Part shown: positions 5,093 to 35,841 of the stretch, one piece after another
How positions within the stretch are numbered: the first letter of the stretch is position 1
How the letters are laid out: the number at the start of each line of letters is the position of its first letter
Virus record (IMG/VR): IMGVR_UViG_3300021959_000145
Coordinates: 1 to 37,753 of that record
Strand: one strand, 5' to 3'
Source: a virus
DNA: 37,753 nucleotides
Made by a program: the position numbers and the translations under genes
Notes under the pieces: model-generated
What the model was told of the DNA's origin: nothing
Database searches by the model: none
Seen by the model: the letters and a program-made list of their open reading frames with translations, nothing else

Positions 5093-7357
5093 ATGTTGGA
5101 AGAAATCGGAACACGGTTGATAGACCGTGGCTATAAAGTCATCCCTATTAAAAAAGGTAAAAAGTTTCCATGCATAGATGAGTGGCAGAAAGCTAACGCC
5201 ACGCATGACGATTTAGCGCGATGGTCAAAAGAATTTCCTGAGAGCGGAATCGGCGTGCTGTGCAAAAACACAATTGCAGTCGATGTCGATTGCAGAAACG
5301 TAAGTTTAGTTAAGCTGTGTGCTAAATGGCTGGAAGAGAATGTCGGAATCGCCGCTGCGCGGATCGGCAACCAGCCAAAGATGCTTTTCGCCTATCGCGG
5401 AAGCCCGCGCAAAAAGATCAAGTCCGTTGAGTTTGAGTGTCAGGAAGGCAACAAGCACGCCGTAGAAGTCTTAGGTGACGGGCAGCAGTTTGTCGCGTTC
5501 GGAGTGCATCCAGATACGCAGAAGCCCTACCGCTGGTTGAAGTCCTACGCCTCGTTGGACTCGGTAAATCACGACGAACTGCCTGAGTTAACAGAAGAAA
5601 CGGCGCGGAGGTTCGTAGAGTTCTTTGAGCGCAAGGCACGCGAGGCTGGTTGGCAGGAAAGCCGGAAAGGTATGGACAGCAACCTCAGTGAGTACGACGA
5701 ACTGCTTGCGCTGCGTCCGAAGTTTGAAGCGGAAGCCGAAGATGTCAGCGAGATGCTTGGCAAGGTTGATCCAGACATCGATCACGATCACTGGTTCCGA
5801 GTTGGGATGGCTCTACACCACCACTTCGATGGTGATGACGAAGGGCTACAGCTTTGGGCAGAGTGGTCTGCTGACGGTGAGAAGTTCAAAGACGGGGAGT
5901 GCGAAAAGCGTTGGGAGAGCTTCGACAGCAACGGCAAGGTGCCGGTGACGCTGGCCTATGTAGCATCCCTCGCTAAGAAAGAAGAGGCTGAAGAGGTCAT
6001 GCGGGAAAAGGTCGATGAGGTTTTACCGCACATGCTGGAGAACTGGTCATTGGTGCTGGTTGAAGGCCATGCACGGGTGGTGCGCGACGATATATTTCAA
6101 GACCGGACAGTCCTGTACGGCCTAGAAGATGTGAGAAAAGAGTTTCAGAACCAACGGGTTATGAGCTATGAGGGCAAAACGCCAAGGCTAGTCAATCTGG
6201 TCGATATGTGGCTTGAGCATGAAGAGCGCAAGACATACCCCGCCGGTCTGGCGTTCAGCCCAGACGGCGAATCAATCAATCAATATAATTTGTGGCGCGG
6301 GTGGTCAGTTGAGCCAGTGGAGGGCGATGTACGCCCGTGGATTGACTTCATAACGTACGTTATTGCGGACGGGAATGTCGCAAACGCAAACTGGATAATA
6401 GCATGGGCCGCGCAGATGGTTCAGCAGCCGCAAGTCAAAATCGGCATAGGTCTAGTGCTAAGAGGGCTGAAGGGTACAGGCAAGACAAAATTTGCCGAGT
6501 TGCTAGGTTGGCTTGTGAAGAGCCACTTCACCAGCGCCAGTAAGGCAGAGCACATCACCGGCAACTTTAACAAGCACCTACAAGAGACGTTGCTGCTGGT
6601 AGGCGAAGAGGCTTATTGGGCAGGTGCTAAGGCTGCGGAGTCGGCATTGAAAGACCTACTGACCGCCAGCCAAATTTTTGTAGAGAAGAAAGGCGTGGAC
6701 GGTTATATGGCACCAAACTACACACGCATTGTGTTTACAAGTAACGATGACTTCGTTGTGCCAGCTACGCTGGATGAGAGGCGGTTTGCAGTTTTTGATA
6801 TCAGCGACTGCCGCAAAGAAGACAGCAAGTATTTCGAGTCGCTCGACTCATGGTTTCACAACGGTGGCGGCTCCGCACTTCTCTATTACCTCAAGCACTT
6901 TGACCTATCGTCAGTTAACGTGCGAAAAGCACCCCAGACTGCCGCCCTGGACGAACAGAAGTTGGAAAACTTGGGCGGTGTAGATGCGTTTTTGTTAGCC
7001 AGTTTACAAAACGCAGAATTCAGAGAGCATAAAATTGCAGGAGAATCGCTTCAGTTCGGTGATGAGGTAAGCAAGACACAGCTTTACGCTATCTATACTT
7101 CAAGCGTGAAGGGACGCTACGAGGCCATAACCCGTGAGAACAGTTTCTGGAAGGCGCTGCGCAAGACCGGCATCTACACCGAAGAGGTGCATAAAAGAGC
7201 GGGAGGCGCACGGTTTAGAGCAGTTAAGTTAGCGGGGCTAAAACAGGCGCGTAAAAGCTTTCAAGAGTATTTAGGCATTAGCGTTGAGTGGACGGAAGAC
7301 GATAGGTTAGATCCGTTAGACCCATCTAACTGGAGCGACGAAGACGTACCCTTCTAG
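5093..7357 (+). CDS. Primase-polymerase / replicative helicase fusion
   Basis: A 754-residue multidomain replication protein. Residues 1 to about 180 are an AEP-type bifunctional primase-polymerase: the metal-binding D-x-D is AVDVD (Asp64, Asp66) and the motif-II-like segment is FVAFGVHPDTQKPYRW. Residues about 214-280 match the PriCT-2 primase C-terminal domain (DIDHDHWFRVGMALHHHF). The C-terminal half is a DUF5906/NrS-1-type helicase: Walker A GLKGTGKT at residues 458-465, then FNKHLQ, EEAYWAG, and VFTSNDDFVVPATLDERRFAVFD-type sensor motifs. It likely primes and unwinds DNA for the phage polymerase. GGGGGAG precedes ATG 5093. It is separated from the other replication genes by the divergent control region. 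Confidence 0.93.
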   Translation: MLEEIGTRLIDRGYKVIPIKKGKKFPCIDEWQKANATHDDLARWSKEFPESGIGVLCKNTIAVDVDCRNVSLVKLCAKWLEENVGIAAARIGNQPKMLFAYRGSPRKKIKSVEFECQEGNKHAVEVLGDGQQFVAFGVHPDTQKPYRWLKSYASLDSVNHDELPELTEETARRFVEFFERKAREAGWQESRKGMDSNLSEYDELLALRPKFEAEAEDVSEMLGKVDPDIDHDHWFRVGMALHHHFDGDDEGLQLWAEWSADGEKFKDGECEKRWESFDSNGKVPVTLAYVASLAKKEEAEEVMREKVDEVLPHMLENWSLVLVEGHARVVRDDIFQDRTVLYGLEDVRKEFQNQRVMSYEGKTPRLVNLVDMWLEHEERKTYPAGLAFSPDGESINQYNLWRGWSVEPVEGDVRPWIDFITYVIADGNVANANWIIAWAAQMVQQPQVKIGIGLVLRGLKGTGKTKFAELLGWLVKSHFTSASKAEHITGNFNKHLQETLLLVGEEAYWAGAKAAESALKDLLTASQIFVEKKGVDGYMAPNYTRIVFTSNDDFVVPATLDERRFAVFDISDCRKEDSKYFESLDSWFHNGGGSALLYYLKHFDLSSVNVRKAPQTAALDEQKLENLGGVDAFLLASLQNAEFREHKIAGESLQFGDEVSKTQLYAIYTSSVKGRYEAITRENSFWKALRKTGIYTEEVHKRAGGARFRAVKLAGLKQARKSFQEYLGISVEWTEDDRLDPLDPSNWSDEDVPF

Positions 7358-8519: not shown

Positions 8520-8703
8520 GGGGCGCACTTCCTCAACAGGCGAGTAGCAGCGTCAGTTTGTGCGCAAAAAAAGCTTTTCATAGGCTGGTTTCCTGCGACG
8601 AGAAACAGAGTAGATGTACGATGGTGGCCCCCGAAACATCATATACGCCATCAATCTGCTCAACTGCTACATTTTATTTCAACAAGAAGTGGTGTATACA
8701 ACA
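8520..8703. other. Intergenic gap before the HTH gene
   Basis: These 184 bases have no convincing gene. A GCGCAC near 8523 and GTGCGC near 8561 could pair over a long loop, followed by seven A residues. This does not look like a terminator on either strand. No strong promoter was found. An upstream extension of the following frame (from 8614) lacks an SD and looks non-coding. Confidence 0.5.
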
Positions 8704-8958
8704 ATGAGTGATATATTTTACCAAGCGACGAGGGTCGTTATTGATGGACGTTTGCTACGAATTTTTAACGGCCCACGTTCTAAGGGAGCTACGGGTTTAA
8801 GGCTTGACCAAAACGAAGAAATCGTAAGCACGATTGTCGGTGATACCCGTAAAGGCAAAAGCGCAAAACAAATAGCGCGAAAGCTAGGTATAGCGCCCAG
8901 CACAGTAACCAAAATTAAAGACATTTTCCGCGAACGCTGGGAAGGTTTTAAGGAGTAA
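8704..8958 (+). CDS. Small helix-turn-helix protein
   Basis: An 84-residue basic protein starting at ATG 8704, chosen as the first ATG giving protein-like sequence; the SD is weak. The C-terminal half is a clear helix-turn-helix, KSAKQIARKLGIAPSTVTKI at about residues 56-75, resembling resolvase- or LuxR-type recognition helices. The N-terminal half (VVIDGRLLRIFNGPRSKGATG) is strand-like and basic. It could be an early transcription factor or a DNA-binding accessory protein. It ends three bases before the next ATG and its final codons supply the next gene's AAGGAG, so the two are translationally linked. Confidence 0.72.
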   Translation: MSDIFYQATRVVIDGRLLRIFNGPRSKGATGLRLDQNEEIVSTIVGDTRKGKSAKQIARKLGIAPSTVTKIKDIFRERWEGFKE

Positions 8959-9515: not shown

Positions 9516-9549
9516 ATCTCTTTCGCGTTCGACCCCCACCCCCACCTAG

Positions 9550-9579
9550 ACCCCTCTACTCAGAGGGGTTTTTTTTTTT
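9550..9579 (+). terminator. Rho-independent terminator of the rightward early block
   Basis: A perfect 8-bp stem ACCCCTCT / AGAGGGGT (9550-9557 and 9562-9569) with an ACTC loop is followed directly by an 11-base T tract. It ends the transcription unit whose last gene stops at 9506. Confidence 0.93.
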
Positions 9580-9936
9580 GAAACCAAACATCAATATCAA
9601 AACCGTTCAAGATTTTTGACCTTTCAGGTTTGGTTTTCAAAAACGACCCCAAAACACCTCTGAAGCAGATTTGCCAGAAAAAACGGGTGAAAAGTAAAGC
9701 GGTGTCGGTAGGCACGGGTTGGGCCAAAAGGCACAGGTTGGGCACGGGTTGGTTTTTTGCACCCTGTACCAAGAAACCCCGCTGCGTTGCGGCTTTGCAG
9801 GTAAGGAACGGGTGGCACAGGTTATTACTCTTTATTTTAAGAGAGAAATATAAGAGTAATACTTTTAGCCGTTCCGCCGTGCCTACTGGCCCCGTGCTTG
9901 CACGCGCACACCTGCCCCCCAGCAAACCGGAAAGTT

Positions 9937-9963
9937 ACCCGTGCCACCCGTGCCACCCGTGCC
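9937..9963. repeat. Three tandem ACCCGTGCC repeats
   Basis: ACCCGTGCC is repeated three times without interruption. The same word, in either orientation, appears five more times within 9711-10050, including in the arms of the leftward terminator. Confidence 0.9.
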
Positions 9964-9991
9964 TAGTGACCTAACTCATTGATTTATAAGC

Positions 9992-10030
9992 AAAAAAAAG
10001 GCACGGGTTAGCGAAAACCAACCCGTGCCT
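9992..10030 (-). terminator. Rho-independent terminator of the leftward accessory operon
   Basis: The perfect 11-bp arms AGGCACGGGTT (9999-10009) and AACCCGTGCCT (10020-10030) pair across a 10-base loop. On the minus strand the stem is followed by a T tract (plus-strand A run 9992-9999). It lies 36 bases beyond the last gene of the leftward operon (stop at 10066). The stem is built from the local repeat word. Confidence 0.85.
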
Positions 10031-10065
10031 AAACCGCTCTAACCCGTGCCTTGCCTATTTATGGC

Positions 10066-10281
10066 CTAAATGAGGCTTTCTAACTCTCTTTCTTCTGCTT
10101 TTTTCATTTCCCCCTTGGTTTCCCGCACGAAACGCTGCGCTTTTCTGAATGCCGATTCGCCACCAATATGAGATTCGAAGAATTCTTCACGATAGGTTCG
10201 GCAATCCCAATTGGTGAATTCGCTGGGATAGGTCACCAGCCACCCGTGATAATATCGGCGAATTTTTACATCTGTTTGCAT
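10066..10281 (-). CDS. Hypothetical small protein of the accessory operon
   Basis: A 71-residue charged protein, the last gene before the leftward terminator. It opens MQTDVKIRRYYHGWLVTYPS and has a helical, mixed-charge C-terminal half (AFRKAQRFVRETKGEMKKAE). No Cys cluster, HTH or membrane segment is seen. Its start overlaps the stop of the upstream gene by one base, so it is translated as part of the operon. I do not recognise a family. The aromatic N-terminal strand suggests a small beta-plus-helix fold. Confidence 0.65.
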   Translation of the reverse strand: MQTDVKIRRYYHGWLVTYPSEFTNWDCRTYREEFFESHIGGESAFRKAQRFVRETKGEMKKAEERELESLI

Positions 10282-11849: not shown

Positions 11850-12533
11850 TTAACCTCTCGCTATGATGTCGGCGCTTTTTGCGCGTGTACCGTGAACTGT
11901 GAAGCCTACAATCGTTGTTCGCTTTGCATGGCTGCAAAGTTTGCAAGACTTACAAGTAACGCCCTCTTTATATTCAGCCGGGCATTGCACGAATCGCACG
12001 CCGCTGCGCTCAAACCCGTGCCAGTTTTCACCACGTTCTTGCTTGCTGATAATGGCTACCGTTGGCAAACCGCGCTTGGCGTAGTCTAGGGCTTGCGCCT
12101 CAGTGTTTGCGCTGGCGTTGATCGTGAACCCGCTAGAATTAGCAGCGCGGACAATGCGCGAGTTAACGCGGTCCATTGGGTAGTGCGTGTAGGTGAACCC
12201 GCGCTTACCTTTATTAGCTGCAACTAACTCCGACACTTTGGTGTCGTCGATTTCGTCGGGTGCGATGGGTGGCAGGTCGCCGCTGACATTGTGCCGCCAT
12301 AACGTACCATCGGGCAGCGCCGCGATATCCGCCACGAATTCGCGCCATTCTTTGCCGCGCTCACCTGCGTCGAGTTTGTCCCAGTTCAAACGGGTATGAA
12401 ATCCTGCTTCGGCATAGCAACCACCCGCACCCGCTAATGGGCAAGCTGGTGGGCATGTTGCGCGTGCGCTATTGGTTGCAGGGATCGGCCCTATTTTGGC
12501 GTTGCTTGATTTTTTAACTAGTTGAAAGCGCAT
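11850..12533 (-). CDS. Cys-rich phage protein (CPPACPL...GCYAE type)
   Basis: A 227-residue protein. ATG 12533 overlaps the upstream stop (TAATG) and is preferred over a longer start inside that gene. After MRFQLVKKSSNAKIGPIPAT it shows a conserved-looking Cys cluster, CPPACPLAGAGGCYAEAGFH (about residues 26-45). A middle region has GTLWRHNVSGDLP and FTYTHYPMD, and a second cluster near the C terminus reads CPAEY, CKSCKLCSHAKRTTIVGF. I have seen this architecture in other phages as an uncharacterised family; it vaguely recalls DUF5131-type proteins, which share GCYA-like Cys motifs and have a radical-SAM-like look. Two Cys clusters suggest Zn or Fe-S binding. No function is known to me. Confidence 0.78.
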   Translation of the reverse strand: MRFQLVKKSSNAKIGPIPATNSARATCPPACPLAGAGGCYAEAGFHTRLNWDKLDAGERGKEWREFVADIAALPDGTLWRHNVSGDLPPIAPDEIDDTKVSELVAANKGKRGFTYTHYPMDRVNSRIVRAANSSGFTINASANTEAQALDYAKRGLPTVAIISKQERGENWHGFERSGVRFVQCPAEYKEGVTCKSCKLCSHAKRTTIVGFTVHGTRAKSADIIARG

Positions 12534-13619: not shown

Positions 13620-14015
13620 ATGGCACGACTACCGGTAGACATAGATATAGAACAAGTGCGACAGCTTGCTGCGCAGGGAATGAGCGAAATCCAAATAGCT
13701 CAATCGTTAGGCGTTAGCCCGTCAACCATCGATAGACGAAAGCGTGATGATCCTGATGGTTTTGGGTGCGCCATAAGAGAGGGACGCGCCGCGGGTATTA
13801 AAGCGGTTACATCGAGCTTATTCCAAGCCGCTACCGACCCCGACAGGCCCAACGTGGCGGCGGCGCAGTTCTACCTTAAGAACCGGGATCGAGCGAACTG
13901 GTCCGACCGGCAAGAACACGATGTGACGGGCCACATAAGCCACGACCACGATCACAACGTACAACGTGCAATGCAAACGCTCATCGACAACGGGGTTGAT
14001 CCTGCAAGCCTTTAA
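13620..14015 (+). CDS. Terminase small subunit
   Basis: A 131-residue DNA-binding protein, first gene of the late block. The N terminus is a helix-turn-helix (VRQLAAQGMSEIQIAQSLGV, then SPSTIDRRKRDDPDGF). The middle carries AIREGRAAGIKAVTSSLFQA and AAQFYLKNRDRANWSDRQEH, the stretch typical of small terminase subunits that recognise phage DNA and recruit the large subunit. GAGG lies six to seven bases before the ATG. The large subunit follows after a gap of about 260 bases. Confidence 0.85.
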   Translation: MARLPVDIDIEQVRQLAAQGMSEIQIAQSLGVSPSTIDRRKRDDPDGFGCAIREGRAAGIKAVTSSLFQAATDPDRPNVAAAQFYLKNRDRANWSDRQEHDVTGHISHDHDHNVQRAMQTLIDNGVDPASL

Positions 14016-14276
14016 CGTTGTGTCGGATGCGGCATCAACCGCAACGCGATGTAGGGTAAGGGCTGGCGGTCCATCTGGTACAGCTATCGGCGCACTGGTG
14101 ACTTTAGGCGGGTGCGGATGCACCCATTCATCCCGTATCGCCATTGCAGAATCGTTAGGTATCGGCACCCATACATCTCTTAAAACCTTAACGCAGTCGT
14201 TAGGCTTCGCAAAATTGGGACTCCGGTGGGGGCGGGTACGGGGCCATATGCTGAGATACATACTTGGGACGGTTTT
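14016..14276 (+). other. Gap between terminase subunits, possible small frame
   Basis: A 261-base stretch between the two terminase genes. One plus-strand frame stays open from within the small-subunit gene to 14289. It contains a hydrophobic segment ending in LGGC (GTAIGALVTLGGCGCTHS), which superficially resembles a lipoprotein signal, but there is no SD and no good start. The opposite strand is also open from 14312 to 13818. I cannot decide whether anything here is translated; codon patterns favour neither frame clearly. Confidence 0.3.
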
Positions 14277-15767
14277 ATGGCGGAAGTGACTTCGCAAAAA
14301 GATGGTTCGCAAAAAGGGACTCCGGTATTAACAGAGGCCCAGCAAGAGAAAGCGGAAGAACTGGCGCAAGCGATTGAACTGGTAAAACAGCACAGACGCG
14401 AGAACCGCATGTCGTTTTTCAAACCGTACCCGTGGCAAGCTGATTTCTACAAATCCGGTAAGACTAACAAGCAGCGTCTTCTCATGGCTGCAAACCGTGT
14501 CGGCAAAACTGCGTCTATGGCGTTGGAGGTTGCGTTTCACCTCACAGGCGAATATCCAGAATGGTGGGAAGGCGTAGAGTTCAAACGCCCCGTAAACCTT
14601 TGGAGCCTGGGAGTTTCTGGAGAGCAGTTACGCGATGTGTTGGTCAAAGAGCTATTCGGTGCCTACCTTGGTGACGGAAAGTTTGACGGCTCTGGATTGA
14701 TTCCGCAAAAGCTGGTGTACCAAGTGACCCCTGCTATGGGTACGCCAAGGCTCCCAAGGGACGTTGCAGTGAGACACGCCAGAGGCAACACAAGCACGGT
14801 CAGTTTTAAGAGCTACACGCAGGGCCAGCATGTCTTGATGGGGTCGAGCCAAGACTTCATCTGGATCGACGAAGAGCCTGTTGACCCCACTATTTATCCG
14901 CAGTGCCTAACTCGCACAGCCACTGGCAACGATGGCAAGGGTGGATATGTGGTGATGACGTTCACGCCAGAGAATGGTGTGACTGAGTTGGTGTCCCAGT
15001 TTATGGACAACCGTGCTAAGGGGCAGCATCTGGCAAACGCCACATGGGAAGATGCAACGCACTTGGACAAGGATACAAAGGAGCAGTTACTGGCTGCAAT
15101 TCCTGAATATCAACGGGATATGCGGAGTAAGGGCATACCCGTTTTGGGTGAAGGCATGGTGTTCCCGATAGCGGAAGAGGCTGTGAAGTGCGAACCGTTT
15201 GAGATACCGCCTCACTATAAGAAACTGGCTGCAATAGACTTTGGTATCACGCACCCAACCACTGTTGTTTGGACAGCCTACAACGCGGACACGGATACGA
15301 TATACGTTTATGACGTTTACAAAAAAGCCGACGAGGTTCCAGCGATACACGCAGCGGTAATCAAGTCCAGAGGTAAAGATATCCCCGTCATTTACCCCCA
15401 TGACGGAGATTCGACGGAGAAGGGCAGCGGCAAGACCTTGGCTGAAATGTATTTAGAGTCGGGGGTGTTAATGATTGGCAAATTTACCAACCCAGATGGC
15501 ACAAACTACGTCGAACCCGCCCTTATGGAAATGTTAGAACGTTTTCGCACAGGCCGATTGAAGGTTTTCAATAACTTGTTACCTTGGTTTGAAGAATTTA
15601 GAAGGTACCACCGCAAAAAAGGCAAGATTCACAAAGAGTTTGATGACCTTATGGACGCGACACGCTATTCCGCAATAAGTGTGACTCGTTTTGGTCAAAA
15701 TCGAGCAGAGCGTGAGAATGTCGGCACACGAACAGGAGCTTATACAAGCCATGATTACGACTATTGA
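14277..15767 (+). CDS. terL: Terminase large subunit
   Basis: A 496-residue packaging ATPase-nuclease. ATPase: Walker A AANRVGKT (residues 71-78) after the adenine-binding FKPYPWQADFY, and Walker B DFIWIDEEP (Asp198, Glu199). The coupling-motif region (VVMTFTPENG) follows. Nuclease (RNase H-like): AIDFG (Asp321), HDGD (Asp376, Asp378) and DDLMDATRYS (Asp456-Asp460). All catalytic residues seem present. ATG 14277 was chosen over a GTG at 14226 that would add a Gly-rich lead. Its end overlaps the portal gene by 17-50 bases. It drives DNA into the prohead through the portal. Confidence 0.95.
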   Translation: MAEVTSQKDGSQKGTPVLTEAQQEKAEELAQAIELVKQHRRENRMSFFKPYPWQADFYKSGKTNKQRLLMAANRVGKTASMALEVAFHLTGEYPEWWEGVEFKRPVNLWSLGVSGEQLRDVLVKELFGAYLGDGKFDGSGLIPQKLVYQVTPAMGTPRLPRDVAVRHARGNTSTVSFKSYTQGQHVLMGSSQDFIWIDEEPVDPTIYPQCLTRTATGNDGKGGYVVMTFTPENGVTELVSQFMDNRAKGQHLANATWEDATHLDKDTKEQLLAAIPEYQRDMRSKGIPVLGEGMVFPIAEEAVKCEPFEIPPHYKKLAAIDFGITHPTTVVWTAYNADTDTIYVYDVYKKADEVPAIHAAVIKSRGKDIPVIYPHDGDSTEKGSGKTLAEMYLESGVLMIGKFTNPDGTNYVEPALMEMLERFRTGRLKVFNNLLPWFEEFRRYHRKKGKIHKEFDDLMDATRYSAISVTRFGQNRAERENVGTRTGAYTSHDYDY

Positions 15768-17841
15768 TGAAAACGAACTGCTGAGTACGCTTGAGCAGAA
15801 TATTGACAGTGCAGACACCTACGCTAACAGCGAGGTTGGTGAGCAAAGGGATAAAGGTCATCGATACTATTACGGTGAACCTATGGGTAACGAGATCCGT
15901 GGTCGGAGCCAGCACGTTTCAATGGATGTGTTCGACGCGGTCGAAGGGGTTAAAGCGTTATTGCTTGAAACTTTCTCAAGCGACAAAAACATTTGTCGCT
16001 TTGACGCTCAATCGCCCGAAGATGTAATGGGCGCACGCATGGCAACATCATGGGTCAATTATAATTTCTACAGACAAAATGACGGGATGAGAATTCTTTC
16101 GTCAGTTATCCACGATGCGCTTATTGCGAAAACGGGGATCGTGAAAAGGTACTACAAGGACGATTATCGTTACGAAACGATGGAGTTTGAAGGCATTACC
16201 GAGGCTGAGTTTAATGTGATGATGTCTGACCCGTCTATGACACCTATGGAAGTTGTTGAGGAGATGGTTTCTACAATAGACCAGCAAACAGGTGTTGAGT
16301 ACGCGGAGATGTCTATCTCAGGCACTGCTCACAAACGCATAGACACCAGTAAGGTGTGCGTTGAGACGGTAGAGCCAGAAGACTTCTTGATTAGCCCACG
16401 GGCCAAGGACATAGAGACAAGCGACTTTTGCAGCCACCGCATGGCTAGGACTCGCGGTGAGCTTCTAGCGGAAGGGTTTGAACAGTCTGTTGTAGATCGT
16501 CTTGATGAAGAAGAAATGTTGAAGGAGGACGGCTCGTTAGGGCGGGACTCTGTAGACAGTTTCCGAAAAGACTCAACAGGGATAAACGACTCTAAGGACA
16601 GAGAGTACGTCACGCTGTACGAGTCCTACATTAAGAAGTACGACGAAGAGATCAACGCCTGTGTCTACTATAAGGTCATACACAGCCGACGAGTAATGTT
16701 AGACGTTGAGTTGGTTAGTGAGATGCCGTTCCGCAGCTTCTGCCCATTCCCGTTACCGCATCGCTTCTACGGCATGAGCCTTGCTGATGTTCTATGCGAC
16801 TTGCAGAAGACGCAGTCATCGTTAAAGCGCGGCGTGGTCGATCATTTGTTCTTAACTACAACAAGCCGTTGGGTAGCCAACTTATCGTTGGTTAAGAACC
16901 CACGCGACTTGCTAGACAACAGAGTTGGCGCAGTGATTGACGTTAACTCGCCAAATCCCGAATCAGTGGTCAGACCTCTTCCAACTCCGCAGCTAAACGG
17001 AAACGTTTATACAGCTATAGAGAATTTTGAGAAAGAGAAGGAGGCGCGTTCGGGGTCTAGCCGCATGAGCAGGGGCATGGACTCTACTGCTGTCAGCAAA
17101 CAAAACTCCAGTGATTTGATTAACACGTTTATGAACGCAAGTAATCGGCGTGTGATGATCATGGCGCGTAACTTAGCCGAGAACTTTCTAAAACCTTTAA
17201 TGCATGACCTGTACAGGCTTGCAGTTGAGTACGAAAAAGAAGAGAAGCTGTTACAGCTAGACGGGCAGTTTGTTCCGGTAAATCCTGCGTTCCTTGGTGA
17301 TCGAACTGAGATGACCGTTGCAGTTGCGCTAACGCCAGATGAGCAATCACAAGAAGCTCAGACGCTGTTGAGCTTGGACACCCAGTTCACATCAAACCCA
17401 CAAGACCCAACCCTTGGCGGTTTATATGGTCAGCAGCAGCGGCACGCGATGCTTAGTAGAGCGTTTGATCTTCTAAACATCAAAGACGCGGCTGCGTATC
17501 TGGCAGATCCAAACTCGCCAGAGTTTCAGCAGATGCAGCAACAGCAACAGCAGCAGCAGCAGGAAGAAGCGCAGCGCCAAGAGCAGATGCAGATGGAGCA
17601 AGTTGAGTTTCAAGCAGAAATGCTGCAACGGCAGGTTAGCGTTCAAGAAGGCCAGTTAGAGCTAGACATCTTGAAGGAGCAAAACCGTAGCGTAATAGAA
17701 CGCGACAAGCAGGAGCACCAAGAAGAGAACGAGGACTCTCGTTTGCTCATGGATGCAGAAAAGATGAAGCATCAGATGAAAATGGACGAAGCTGAACTGG
17801 TTCTTGAAAAAACGCAGAGCCGCAACGTGAGTATCGGCTAA
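15718..17841 (+). CDS. Portal protein
   Basis: About 707 residues, matching the large portal proteins of P22/SU10-like podoviruses. Visible signatures are KGHRYYYGEPMGNEIRGRSQ, the SWVNYNFYRQNDGMRILSSV segment, PEDFLISPRAKDIETSDFCS, and the clip/stem region PFRSFCPFPLPHRFYGMSLA. The C terminus is a helical barrel-like tail with nine consecutive Gln (residues about 610-620), followed by long charged helices. The start is uncertain: ATG 15718 has no clear SD, ATG 15751 has AGGAG twelve bases upstream, and both overlap terL. The dodecameric portal is the docking point of terminase, then of the adaptor and tail. Confidence 0.93.
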   Translation: MSAHEQELIQAMITTIDENELLSTLEQNIDSADTYANSEVGEQRDKGHRYYYGEPMGNEIRGRSQHVSMDVFDAVEGVKALLLETFSSDKNICRFDAQSPEDVMGARMATSWVNYNFYRQNDGMRILSSVIHDALIAKTGIVKRYYKDDYRYETMEFEGITEAEFNVMMSDPSMTPMEVVEEMVSTIDQQTGVEYAEMSISGTAHKRIDTSKVCVETVEPEDFLISPRAKDIETSDFCSHRMARTRGELLAEGFEQSVVDRLDEEEMLKEDGSLGRDSVDSFRKDSTGINDSKDREYVTLYESYIKKYDEEINACVYYKVIHSRRVMLDVELVSEMPFRSFCPFPLPHRFYGMSLADVLCDLQKTQSSLKRGVVDHLFLTTTSRWVANLSLVKNPRDLLDNRVGAVIDVNSPNPESVVRPLPTPQLNGNVYTAIENFEKEKEARSGSSRMSRGMDSTAVSKQNSSDLINTFMNASNRRVMIMARNLAENFLKPLMHDLYRLAVEYEKEEKLLQLDGQFVPVNPAFLGDRTEMTVAVALTPDEQSQEAQTLLSLDTQFTSNPQDPTLGGLYGQQQRHAMLSRAFDLLNIKDAAAYLADPNSPEFQQMQQQQQQQQQEEAQRQEQMQMEQVEFQAEMLQRQVSVQEGQLELDILKEQNRSVIERDKQEHQEENEDSRLLMDAEKMKHQMKMDEAELVLEKTQSRNVSIG

Positions 17842-21171: not shown

Positions 21172-24100
21172 ATGTCTGGATTTTTTAAAGACAACCCCGC
21201 CGTCACCGCCGATGCCTATACGCAGGACGCGCTGACTAGCAAGAACGCCGCCGAGGCCGCGAAGGTAGCTTCGGAGGCAGCGAAAGTAGCTTCGGAGGCA
21301 GCGCAGGCGGCGGCAGAGACTGCCGAGGCTAATGCCGAGACCGCAGAGGCTAACGCCGAGACCGCAGAGGCAAATGCGGAGACAGCAGCCAACGGTATTG
21401 CGGCGGATGCCGCGACGGCGGCCACCAAGGCAAGTGAGTCGGCAGCTTCTGCGACACAAGCCGCCACCAGCGCAGGGCAAGCTGCCATATCAAATTCAGG
21501 TGCAAGCGCCAGCCAGACCGCAGCCGCCTCCTCTGCCACATCGGCCTCTAGCAGCGCCAGCACAGCGACCACTAAGGCCGGTGAGGCGGCAACCTCCGCA
21601 TCAAATGCGGCCACCAGCGAAACAAACGCCGCTGCAAGCGCAACAACGAGCGCAACCGAGGCCACGAATAGCGCGGCCAGCGCCGCAAGCTCTTTGGCGG
21701 CAAAAAATGCAGCCGAGACTGCCGAGTCGAATGCGGAGACCGCAGAGACCAACGCCGCAGCAAGTCAAAGCGCGGCAGCGACATCTGCCACAAACGCCGC
21801 TGGATCTGCTACCACTGCCAGCACCAAGGCCGGAGAGGCGGCAACGTCAGCTACCAACGCCGCTGGCTCCGCTACATCCGCAACAACCAGCGCAGCCACG
21901 GCTACAACTCAGGCTAGTAACGCATCTTCATCCGCCACGGCTGCAAGTAGCTCTGCCTCTTCTGCTTCTGCGGCTCAATCAGCCGCTGAGACGGCGAAGA
22001 CCGCAGCCGAAACTGCGGAGACTAATGCCGAGACCGCAGAGACAAACGCAGCGGCAAGTCAAAGCGCAGCAGCGACATCAGCAAGTAATGCGGCGACTTC
22101 AGCTACCAACGCCGCGTCGAGCGCAACGTCCGCAAACACAGCTAAAACCGCAGCCGAGTCTGCAAAAACTGCGGCGGAAACTGCTGAGACAAACGCTGAG
22201 ACGGCTGAGACAAACGCGGAAACCGCAGAAACAAACGCCGCAGCCAGCGCATCGGCGGCGTCTACCAGCGCCAGCAACGCAGCTACATCGGCCACATCTG
22301 CCTCTAATTCTGCCACCGCTGCCAGCGCCAGCGAGAGCACCGTTGCGTCAAGCGCCACGGCTGCGGCCACATCTGCGACAAACGCTGCCTCCTCGGCCAC
22401 ATCTGCCGCCTCATCCGCTACCTCTGCCTCCAACAGCGCCACCACGGCGACCACGCAGGCTGGCACCAGCACAACGCAGGCCGGTAACAGCGCCACGTCG
22501 GCGACGGCAGCGAGCAACTCAGCCTCCTCCGCCGCGTCGGCTCAGTCAGCCGCCGAGGCCGCACGAGACTCCGCGCTGGCTGCGCTGGACAGCTTCGATG
22601 ATCGTTACTTGGGATCTAAGTCCAGCGCCCCGTCTGTCGATAACGACGGCAACGCGCTGGTGTCTGGCGCACTGTACTTCGACAGCACAAGCAGCGCCAT
22701 GAAGGTCTACGATGGCAGCCAGTGGCTCAACGCCTACGCCTCTCTTGCAGGGGCGTTGATCGCCAACCAGAACCTGTCGGATCTGAATAACGCCGCCACT
22801 GCCCGAACTAATTTAGGACTCGGCACCGCGGCCACCACCGCTTCAAGCGACTACGCGACTGCCGCACAGGCAGATCAGACGGTGTCGTTAACAGGCTCTG
22901 GCGCGACCAGTATCAGCGGGACATACCCCAACTTCACGATCACAAGCACCGACACGAACACCAACACAACTTATTCGGCTGGGTCTGGTATCTCGTTGTC
23001 GGGTACTACGTTCTCGAACTCCGCGCCTGACCAAACCGTATCGCTTACCGGCGCTGGCGCTACAAGCATCAGTGGCACTTATCCAAACTTCACAATTACT
23101 AGCACTGACACAAACACAGACACCAACACAACTTACTCGGCTGGCTCTGGTATTTCGTTGTCTGGCACGACGTTCAGCAACAGCGCCCCTGATCAAACTG
23201 TGTCTCTGACAGGCGCTGGCGCGACCAGTATCTCTGGGACATACCCGAACTTTACGGTCACAAGCACGGACACCAACACTACTTACTCCGTTGGCGATGG
23301 CGGGCTTACTCAGAACAACTTTACGACTACGCTGAAAAACAAGCTGGACGGCATAGAAGCCAGCGCCGATGTCACCGATACAGCGAATGTTGTTTCTGCG
23401 TTAACGGCTGGCACAAATGTGGCGATTGCCTCAAATGGAACTATTAGCAGCACCGATACCAATACCACCTACAGTGCTGGATCGGGTATTTCATTGTCAG
23501 GCACTACGTTTTCAAACTCCGCGCCTGATCAGACTGTTGCGCTTACCGGCTCAGGAGGCACCACCGTCAGCGGGACATACCCGAACTTTACGATCAGCAG
23601 CGCAGCCAGCATCGACGGCACCACGATCAACCCATCGAACATTAAGATATCTGGGGCGCAAGGTAGTGACGGACAGGTTTTAACTTCCACGGGATCGGGG
23701 GTTGCGTGGGAGAATGCTGCGGCTGGTGGAATTACCTCTCATAACATAAATGGTCTAGGATCAAATCGTTTCTATGCGGGCTTAATAAGTGTCAATGGAG
23801 GTAGTCCTCGGACCCTTCCCACTACAACTCTAGATTATTTACCTTTTCAAGTTTTTGAAGACTGCGTAATTGATGGTTTGAATATAATTATTGATGGAGG
23901 CACTGGCACTTCTGGAGATTTAGCTCAAATAGCAATCTATGGGCCAGTTTCACAAGATCTTTCTACTGCGGCTCGTAAGGTAGTTAGCTCTTCATTTGAT
24001 GTTAGCGGGGGCTACGGTAAAACTGTAGCGATCACAGCAACCTCCTTCACCGCAGGCGTTTACCTATACTGTATTACTGCAAACACCGCTAGCTTGAATA

Positions 24101-24300
24101 TAAGAGGTTATGAGTCTCAAGGTAAGTATGTCAACTACATGGTAGGCGTCAATAATGCAAGTTTTCCGGGGGGATTATCAGGTCACCAATACGGACAAAA
24201 CACTGTGACTACTTTTCCTCATAGCTATCCTACTAGCGTTGGTGCATCGCAAGCCAATCCATCTTCAATAGCTTATCAATTTAGATATCTGGTGCAATAA
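21172..24300 (+). CDS. Long Ala-rich tail fibre
   Basis: A 1042-residue fibre. After a short N-terminal anchor (SGFFKDNPAVTADAYTQDAL), residues about 20-470 are almost entirely Ala, Ser, Thr, Glu and Asn in repeats such as AETAETNAETAETN, the coiled-coil rod type seen in lambda side tail fibres. A linker (DDRYLGSKSSAPSVDNDG) starts near 476, followed by four beta-type repeats (DQTVSLTG...) at 22873-23600. The last 200 residues form a distinct tip (from ITSHNINGLG to the end YQFRYLVQ), probably the receptor-binding head. The DNA shifts from GC-rich to AT-rich near 23720. The chaperone-like gene follows directly. Confidence 0.9.
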   Translation: MSGFFKDNPAVTADAYTQDALTSKNAAEAAKVASEAAKVASEAAQAAAETAEANAETAEANAETAEANAETAANGIAADAATAATKASESAASATQAATSAGQAAISNSGASASQTAAASSATSASSSASTATTKAGEAATSASNAATSETNAAASATTSATEATNSAASAASSLAAKNAAETAESNAETAETNAAASQSAAATSATNAAGSATTASTKAGEAATSATNAAGSATSATTSAATATTQASNASSSATAASSSASSASAAQSAAETAKTAAETAETNAETAETNAAASQSAAATSASNAATSATNAASSATSANTAKTAAESAKTAAETAETNAETAETNAETAETNAAASASAASTSASNAATSATSASNSATAASASESTVASSATAAATSATNAASSATSAASSATSASNSATTATTQAGTSTTQAGNSATSATAASNSASSAASAQSAAEAARDSALAALDSFDDRYLGSKSSAPSVDNDGNALVSGALYFDSTSSAMKVYDGSQWLNAYASLAGALIANQNLSDLNNAATARTNLGLGTAATTASSDYATAAQADQTVSLTGSGATSISGTYPNFTITSTDTNTNTTYSAGSGISLSGTTFSNSAPDQTVSLTGAGATSISGTYPNFTITSTDTNTDTNTTYSAGSGISLSGTTFSNSAPDQTVSLTGAGATSISGTYPNFTVTSTDTNTTYSVGDGGLTQNNFTTTLKNKLDGIEASADVTDTANVVSALTAGTNVAIASNGTISSTDTNTTYSAGSGISLSGTTFSNSAPDQTVALTGSGGTTVSGTYPNFTISSAASIDGTTINPSNIKISGAQGSDGQVLTSTGSGVAWENAAAGGITSHNINGLGSNRFYAGLISVNGGSPRTLPTTTLDYLPFQVFEDCVIDGLNIIIDGGTGTSGDLAQIAIYGPVSQDLSTAARKVVSSSFDVSGGYGKTVAITATSFTAGVYLYCITANTASLNIRGYESQGKYVNYMVGVNNASFPGGLSGHQYGQNTVTTFPHSYPTSVGASQANPSSIAYQFRYLVQ
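22873..23600 (+). repeat. Four beta-shaft repeats in the tail fibre
   Basis: Copies beginning DQTVSLTG (DQTVALTG in the last) start at 22873, 23029, 23191 and 23527. The first two periods are 156 and 162 bases. Each copy includes SISGTYPNFT or a close variant and TTYSAGSGISLSGTTFSN or a close variant. The third copy is interrupted by a segment (YSVGDGGLTQNNFTTTLKN) that recurs in the second fibre gene at 25725. Confidence 0.9.
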
Positions 24301-34782: not shown

Positions 34783-35841
34783 ATGGGCAGTATTAATAAG
34801 CACGGAAAAGGCTACAGAGTTCTGATTCGCAGAGTTGGAATAGACACAATCTCAGAGAGTGGATTTCTTAAAAAGTCTGAGGCTGAAGCTAGAATGAAAG
34901 AAATAGAATTAGCACTATATAAAGGCACTTGGTTTGAGGACACTTCAAACCTCGGAGTGTTGATCACCACTTATTTAGAAGAATACGGCCCTTTCCGTAG
35001 AGATAAGGTGGGTCACCTTAAAGGTGTAAAGGAGGAACTGGGGCATCTAAACCTTAGCGAGTTAACGTCTCCAATAATAATTAAGTTTGCCAAAAAGCGC
35101 GGGGAGAAAGTTCACCCCAGCACAGTGCAAAAAGACATGCTCTACTTAGGTAGTTTACTAAAAGCTGCTGAAGCGGCGTATGACTGCACACCTAAACTGG
35201 ACGAATTCAGAAAAGCTTCTCACTTCCTGAGATCGATGCGGATCGTGTCAGAAAGTGATGAGCGAGAGGTCAGGATGACCGATGCAGAAATTGACAGGGT
35301 TATCAGCAGCGCCAGCACTAAGATGCCGTTTGAGGACATTGTCAAGTTTGCTGTGCTGTCAGCGATGCGCCGTGGCGAAATACTCGACATGACTTGGGAT
35401 GAGTTAGGCGACGATGGTCGGACAATCGGTCTGTGGAGGAAGTGCCCAAAAAAAGGTAAGCGGTATGTCCGCGTACCTTTGCAAGAGGATGCCGCTAAGA
35501 TTGTCCAAAGGCAAGAGAGAACCAGTGCTAGGATATTTCCGTATCGCGATGAGACATTGAGCAATCGTTGGAGAGCGGCGGCTAAAAAAGCTGGTTTGCA
35601 AGTGCGCTTTCACGATTTGCGGCATGAGGGTATCAGCCGCTTGTTTGAGCTTGGCTACGACATAATGCGCGTACAGCTTTTTTCTGGTCACCGAGACTTG
35701 AACATGCTCAAGAGATACACGCACCTGAACGCTGATAAGGTAGTAGCAGCTATGGACGCTGAGTCGAACAGTGATCTATCAGTCGAGCTAAGTACCATTG
35801 CGCCTTCTGAAGATCCTGCACCACTTGACCTTTATGTCTGA
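34783..35841 (+). CDS. int: Tyrosine integrase
   Basis: A 352-residue phage tyrosine recombinase. The N-terminal arm-binding domain (INKHGKGYRVLIRRVG; FLKKSEAEARMKEIELALYK) precedes a core-binding SAM-like domain. The catalytic domain shows Arg196 (SAMRRGEILDMTW), Lys226 (KKGKRYVRVPL), His277-x-x-Arg280 (FHDLRHEGIS), His303 (LFSGHRDL) and the nucleophile Tyr312 (LKRYTHL). All catalytic positions are present. It integrates the phage at attP, probably within the repeat-rich region just upstream. No SD. Its last 92 bases overlap the 3' end of the opposite-strand DUF3310 gene. Confidence 0.95.
   Translation: MGSINKHGKGYRVLIRRVGIDTISESGFLKKSEAEARMKEIELALYKGTWFEDTSNLGVLITTYLEEYGPFRRDKVGHLKGVKEELGHLNLSELTSPIIIKFAKKRGEKVHPSTVQKDMLYLGSLLKAAEAAYDCTPKLDEFRKASHFLRSMRIVSESDEREVRMTDAEIDRVISSASTKMPFEDIVKFAVLSAMRRGEILDMTWDELGDDGRTIGLWRKCPKKGKRYVRVPLQEDAAKIVQRQERTSARIFPYRDETLSNRWRAAAKKAGLQVRFHDLRHEGISRLFELGYDIMRVQLFSGHRDLNMLKRYTHLNADKVVAAMDAESNSDLSVELSTIAPSEDPAPLDLYV

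Follow-up and report, generated by a model that had tools for sequence, protein, structure and literature searches.

What is the role of a dense cluster of one short word in the non-coding DNA of a phage? The cluster occupies the convergent intergenic space of a virus record of 37,753 nucleotides, analysed over its whole length and referred to here as the window, which belongs to a phage carrying Prim-Pol, terminase, portal and integrase genes; the presence of the integrase gene makes this phage probably temperate. A first-pass annotation, made from the letters alone, had offered three readings of the cluster: an iteron-like origin serving the primase-polymerase system, a site for a phage DNA-binding protein, or an expansion of terminator DNA. 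By comparing the window with its relatives we arrive at the first of these, favoured by the retention of the array, the concerted change of its words and the co-variation of these words with a winged helix. We propose that the cluster is very probably an iteron-type replication origin of the phage, recognised by the C-terminal winged helix of its own Prim-Pol/SF3-helicase protein.

Results

The repeat cluster of the window

The word GGCACGGGT is present in eight exact copies between positions 9711 and 10050, three on the plus strand (starting at 9711, 9741 and 10000) and five on the minus strand (starting at 9937, 9946, 9955, 10021 and 10042), accompanied by the near copies GGCACAGGT at 9730 and 9814 and GGAACGGGT at 9805; a position-weight matrix built from the word copies recognises about 15 sites in the region. 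The rest of the 37.7-kb window contains a single exact copy, on the minus strand at 12014-12022, inside a DUF7227 gene. When the whole window was shuffled 150 times with dinucleotide composition preserved, no 9-mer exceeded three copies per 340 bp, against the eight observed; these shuffles and the exact counts bear out the initial report of three direct and five inverted 9-mers, with near copies, in 340 bp. Short mechanical open reading frames across the cluster show no sign of being real genes. The cluster has two properties expected of an iteron origin: it is an array of one short word in non-coding DNA, and a candidate AT-rich unwinding region lies beside the repeats, a layout that recurs in the relatives (Table 1). 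The GC skew of the window, considered as an origin test, tracks gene direction only and provides no independent origin signal. Elsewhere in the window, a tail-fibre-like open reading frame at 21172-24300 has a local GC content of about 62% in a 50% GC genome and contains clustered short repeats, ACAAACGC and CTGCGGTC.

Table 1. Features of the repeat element and its gene setting in the window.
Feature	Position	Strand	Basis or remark
Prim-Pol / PriCT-2 / SF3-type helicase (DUF5906) / C-terminal winged helix protein	5093-7357	+	Pfam; proposed initiator binding the word (co-variation)
Codons of Prim-Pol residues 682-713 (recognition helix 682-692, wing 695-713)	7136-7231	+	Proposed reading head; structure models
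Small HTH protein	8701-8958		Between Prim-Pol gene and repeat element
Rightward intrinsic terminator of the Prim-Pol-side operon	9548-9571	+	Terminator scan; conserved in relatives
Left array, three direct copies	9711-9719, 9730-9738 (GGCACAGGT), 9741-9749	+	
Linker GGCCAAAA in left array	9722-9729		Kept in relatives having other words
Inverted degenerate copy GGTACAGGG, closes left hairpin	9762-9770	-	Reads CCTGTGCC in L008 and L016
Two abutting direct copies, GGAACGGGT and GGCACAGGT	9805-9822	+	
AT-rich core, 44 bp, about 80% AT, candidate DNA-unwinding element	9823-9866		AT-richest 45-mer of 9600-10100
Degenerate inverted copies	9867-9875, 9876-9883, 9890-9898	-	Matrix sites
Three exact inverted tandem copies, 9-bp spacing	9937-9963	-	
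Right hairpin (direct copy 10000-10008, inverted copy 10021-10029)	9999-10030	-	Followed by T-tract on minus strand
Last inverted copy	10042-10050	-	
Terminase small subunit TerS (PHROG 309)	13620-14015	+	Tested and rejected as word reader
TerL	14226-15767		
P22/SU10-type portal	15691-17841		
Phage integrase	34783-35841		

The first-pass annotation had placed the cluster between two facing terminators. Both are found, but the leftward one lies inside the cluster, two word copies forming its stem and a third (10042) lying past it. Its stem, recovered by the scan at 10030-9999, consists of the word and its complement, as had been claimed and as the copy positions also indicate. The right hairpin is followed by a T-tract on the minus strand and is therefore also a terminator of leftward genes in the window clade; among the relatives, the same hairpin has the T-tract in L015 and lacks it in L022. 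The leftward terminator at 9999-10030 is the conserved last hairpin of the putative origin, doubling as a terminator in the clade with leftward genes.

Conservation of the element in close relatives

An element of some 350 bp recurs at an equivalent place in about 40 related contigs, where it follows the Prim-Pol gene by 0.5-4 kb and precedes the terminase genes. Contigs L008, L009 and L014-L017, with Prim-Pols 89-97% identical, have the same element at the same position, and L043 and L200 have the same element by sequence. The element aligns well in L014 and L015, where the next genes on the right have been exchanged or have diverged beyond alignment, and in L014 its identity exceeds that of the left flank. 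L008, L015 and L016 contain an additional copy of the left module, and copy number therefore varies by whole modules. Absence or random divergence of the repeats in close relatives, named at the outset as evidence that would speak against an origin, is not what we observe: close relatives keep the repeats, and distant relatives swap the word in all copies with no random decay. A DNA similarity search of the region among named phages gave no match. Matches in a bacterial-genome scan for the 16-mer GGCCAAAAGGCACRGG, too loose a pattern, look random; most of those to CCCGTGCCACCCGTGCC outside the family are unlike the element, and several resemble low-complexity repeats.

Changing words in a conserved layout

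A search for relatives of the Prim-Pol reported 385. The search for arrays in more distant relatives was blind, any clustered 8-mer being accepted with the word unspecified; a few looser arrays were added by inspection, and the word matrices were seeded with words chosen after inspection. An array was found downstream of Prim-Pol, mostly by the blind search, in most to nearly all relatives having at least about 3.5 kb of downstream DNA; no array was seen in L256, and that of L028 is looser. Around the AT-rich centre, direct and inverted copies follow one another in a recurring order, ---+--++-+++, in most relatives, and the words share a common register, NNNN followed by C-R-R-G. The word itself differs between lineages, and all copies within one genome change together. 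Beside GGCACGGGT in the window lineage, we find CGCACGGGT in L022 and L259, CGTACAAGG/CGTACGGGG in L018, TGGTCAAGG in L019-L025 except L022 and also in L283, TGGTCAAAG in L026, CGTTCAAGG in L248 and L344, CGCACAGG/TGCACAGG in L252, L260-L270 and L290, CTCACAGG in L272, L276 and L280, TGCACAGGT in L287, L294 and L296, AACTCAGGG in L286 and L347, and GTGTCAGG in L243. The pair L018 and L022 illustrates the exchange: their flanks are about 95% identical, their Prim-Pols are 97% identical and they have linkers such as GGCCAAAC in common, but the words differ throughout the array. These two contigs also differ by a gene replacement between Prim-Pol and the element (L018:2910-3146 versus L022:3275-3805) in regions otherwise about 92% identical; L022 has two small genes (92 and 80 aa) in this interval that are absent in L018.

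The Prim-Pol of Ruegeria phage Tedan (L300) is only 25% identical, and two CTTGTAAGGC arrays lie between its Prim-Pol and TerL genes. These are placed about 1 kb apart, at L300:13453-13760 and 14498-14720, which suggests a duplicated origin module. The gene order is also shared by Pseudomonas phage phiH1 and Stenotrophomonas phage DLP4, where only weak repeats are seen; these are CTTAGAT/ATCTAAG-like and surround an AT-rich stretch in the primase-TerS interval (L299:7000-7090 in phiH1, L301:10130-10225 in DLP4), a position as in the window.

Other repeats are found in the same part of these genomes. A 14-bp unit (ACCGCGACAAATCA-like) is repeated in tandem, about 13 times at most, at L021:5316-5500, L019:7960-8060, L023:4780-4850, L024:14085-14160 and L328:2966-3060, in most cases directly after the iteron array; the L328 DNA examined shows no iteron array. 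A related, GCCGCAAA-like tandem occupies L252:16103-16539. Five tandem copies of the 12-bp repeat GCACTCAAATAC (L027:4199-4257) lie just upstream of a small HTH gene homologous to that at 8701-8958 of the window, and this repeat is nearly missing in L028, a close relative of L027.

Co-variation of the word with the Prim-Pol winged helix

The element lies between the Prim-Pol and terminase genes wherever both are visible, so that Prim-Pol and TerS are both candidate readers of the word. The full-length AlphaFold model of Prim-Pol was poor (pLDDT 60); the C-terminal domain alone was taken from it and then superseded by a model of the domain, which is a predicted winged helix with a mean pLDDT of 80. 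The best Foldseek match of this domain, at a weak E-value of 0.015, is archaeal Orc1/Cdc6 on origin DNA.

A sliding scan of Prim-Pol against the word, with the rest of the protein removed, gave the best correlation for residues 686-715 (r = 0.46; 25 non-redundant loci), while equally variable segments outside the winged helix reached r of about 0.1 in the same loci. An unsupervised scan of all 754 residues placed columns 705, 700, 688 and 684 at the top, all of them in the recognition helix or the wing. Among Prim-Pols that are otherwise alike, pairs with different words show 189 differences in the 30 residues of helix and wing against 38.8 expected, and same-word pairs show 108 against 107.9 expected. 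L018 and L259, whose words differ, have 11 Prim-Pol differences, four of them in these 30 residues (p = 6e-4); L022 and L259, which share a word, have 19 Prim-Pol differences and none in helix and wing. A partial Mantel test of the word against helix and wing, given the rest of the protein, yielded r = 0.33 (p = 2e-4), the reverse test r = 0.02, and the 17-locus subset with TerS a weaker r = 0.16 (p = 0.07); because the loci are related and the pairs non-independent, all these figures lend support without being exact probabilities and the Mantel p-values are optimistic, and there were probably fewer than ten independent word switches. Loci added later agreed with expectation and, as close relatives, make a weak independent test.

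At the level of single residues, wing residue 700 is Tyr where the base before C is T (L024, L026, L248 and L344) and His, Gln or Met where it is A. L286 and L347 have Gln at this wing position and yet T before C, which breaks the full rule that residue 700 dictates this base and leaves it only partial.

The word and the Prim-Pol winged helix change together across related phages, a relationship that may be read as one of lock and key; the word is matched, indirectly through this co-variation, to the DNA-binding domain of a nearby putative initiator. The suggestion of a site for a phage DNA-binding protein merges with that of an origin, since the likely binder is Prim-Pol itself.

Discussion

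Alternative explanations of the array

A packaging site (pac/cos), at which TerS would bind the repeats and the element would mark the start of packaging, is improbable. The TerS protein has an HTH, in many relatives 67-220 bp separate the element from the downstream terS, and L018 and L022, which differ in their words, have TerS proteins only about 70% identical. Against this, terS is 2.4-3.7 kb away in the window clade, behind leftward genes, and the words do not follow TerS: L260/L262 and L267/L270 share YGCACAGGG with very different TerS proteins, L267/L270 and L274 have closely similar TerS proteins and different words, and the TerS HTHs of L018 and L262 are nearly the same although their words differ. 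We reject TerS as the reader of the word on these grounds; the repeats do not match its DNA-binding domain, and, once the rest of Prim-Pol is accounted for, the TerS HTH gives a partial Mantel correlation of r = -0.07. The P22/SU10-type portal and Terminase_6 also suggest headful packaging, for which pac typically lies inside terS. An operator or partition (parS-like) site serving a phage regulator instead of replication, such as the small HTH protein encoded at 8701-8958, would suit a probably temperate phage with an integrase, and small HTH genes do sit between Prim-Pol and the element. L018, L022, L024 and L026 retain the element although their matching interval lacks these genes, and the word follows the Prim-Pol winged helix; we consider such a site highly improbable.

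If the region were a structured RNA, or a purely structural DNA of the cruciform or stem-loop kind proposed for pRN1, the word would matter only through self-pairing and the copies would change together to keep that pairing. The region folds far better than its shuffles (z = -7.6 on the plus strand and -8.6 on the minus strand), the right-hand hairpin is retained across lineages, pRN1 requires an intact stem-loop (PMC4234260), and any change of the word also keeps the pairing between copies, so that a role of the hairpins is inseparable from that of the word. Folding is, however, equally strong on both strands, which fits inverted repeats in DNA and not one RNA, and an Rfam search of the region returned nothing above the gathering score. 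Several copies are tandem direct repeats lacking an adjacent partner, and pairing alone leaves the co-variation with the Prim-Pol winged helix unexplained; a purely structural role seems improbable. The expansion of terminator DNA, with repeats that have no role themselves, draws on the one copy pair that forms a strong leftward terminator. It is contradicted by the array of L022 and similar relatives, which has no terminator there, and by tandem direct copies, which are unable to form terminators; the arrays of relatives use other words, and neither the conserved order of the copies nor their concerted change is expected unless the word is under selection. We give this explanation almost no credence.

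Comparison with known systems and a model of initiation

Type specificity in lambdoid phages, where the DNA-binding domain of the initiator O matches ori iterons that are particular to the lineage, offers a precedent for what we propose for the window family; O differs in not being a primase-helicase and in having its iterons inside the O gene. P4 alpha is a multifunctional primase-helicase whose winged helix binds short origin repeats (PMC4234260), and the window family resembles it in combining such repeats with a primase-helicase that has a C-terminal winged helix, as indicated by Pfam, by the structure models and by the weak Foldseek match. P4 alpha has a bacterial Toprim-type (DnaG-like) primase, whereas the window protein has Prim-Pol (PF09250) and PriCT-2 in place of Toprim; unlike P4, the window family has a word that differs between lineages and an array with its own conserved layout. 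The protein itself resembles ORF904 of the Sulfolobus plasmid pRN1, with Prim-Pol, SF3 helicase and C-terminal winged helix in one chain. An essential cis element with fast-changing sequence and conserved structure lies downstream of orf904, and the authors of that study described an origin without iterons and suggested that Prim-Pol/SF3/winged-helix proteins are directed to stem-loops (PMC4234260). In the window family, too, the element follows the gene, at a distance of 0.5-4 kb instead of directly, and it is a clear array of 8-15 words with hairpins as well. The closest solved relative of the helicase part is the Prim-Pol of phage NrS-1 (PDB 6K9C/6K9E; E = 1e-8), which is reported to start on an 8-nt template sequence with two copies in its genome (PMC7102993), and not on an iteron array as proposed here. 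The iterons of PLE satellites vary under attack by the origin-directed nuclease Odn of ICP1 (PMC8263062), a likeness in iteron variation to the window family; PLE differs in its RepA_N initiator and its semi-palindromic repeats of about 30 bp.

The best explanation is an element that would work like P4 alpha/ori, but with an archaeo-eukaryotic primase as in pRN1. By analogy with these two systems, we propose a model in which the C-terminal winged helix of Prim-Pol binds the iterons, its recognition helix and wing reading the variable 5' half of the word and conserved contacts presumably reading the shared C-R-R-G part. Through binding to the direct and inverted copies on both sides, two helicase assemblies would be loaded, each turned towards the AT-rich core of 44 bp; the core would melt, possibly aided by hairpins of the inverted copies, and the Prim-Pol domain would prime synthesis on it, so that replication would start at the element.

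The window family would thus join a pRN1-type protein with a P4-like iteron origin. An iteron origin is a known kind of element; its use, with words particular to each lineage, by a phage replicon that has an archaeo-eukaryotic Prim-Pol appears to be a new variant, and a non-exhaustive search of the open-access literature found no paper describing these arrays. We see about an even chance of a broader interpretation, that of a widespread temperate phage family in which the iteron word has been rewritten repeatedly, in every copy at once and together with a few residues of the Prim-Pol winged helix, which would create a large number of replicon types incompatible with one another, as well as a natural code linking protein and DNA; conflict with satellites or origin-directed nucleases would possibly be the driver. 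Conflict with an origin-directed nuclease, as in the PLE satellites, is a possible driver of the word switches.

If correct, our reading locates a replication origin in a large marine-type phage group for which metagenomes are almost the only source of knowledge, and it points to the protein and the residues expected to read that origin. For this phage group, it would contradict the proposal that Prim-Pol/SF3/winged-helix proteins use stem-loops rather than iterons. The roughly ten natural word types, each paired with its winged-helix variant, would permit a direct test of a joint switch of specificity in an initiator and at least ten repeats, and the type of origin may be readable from the Prim-Pol sequence in other contigs.
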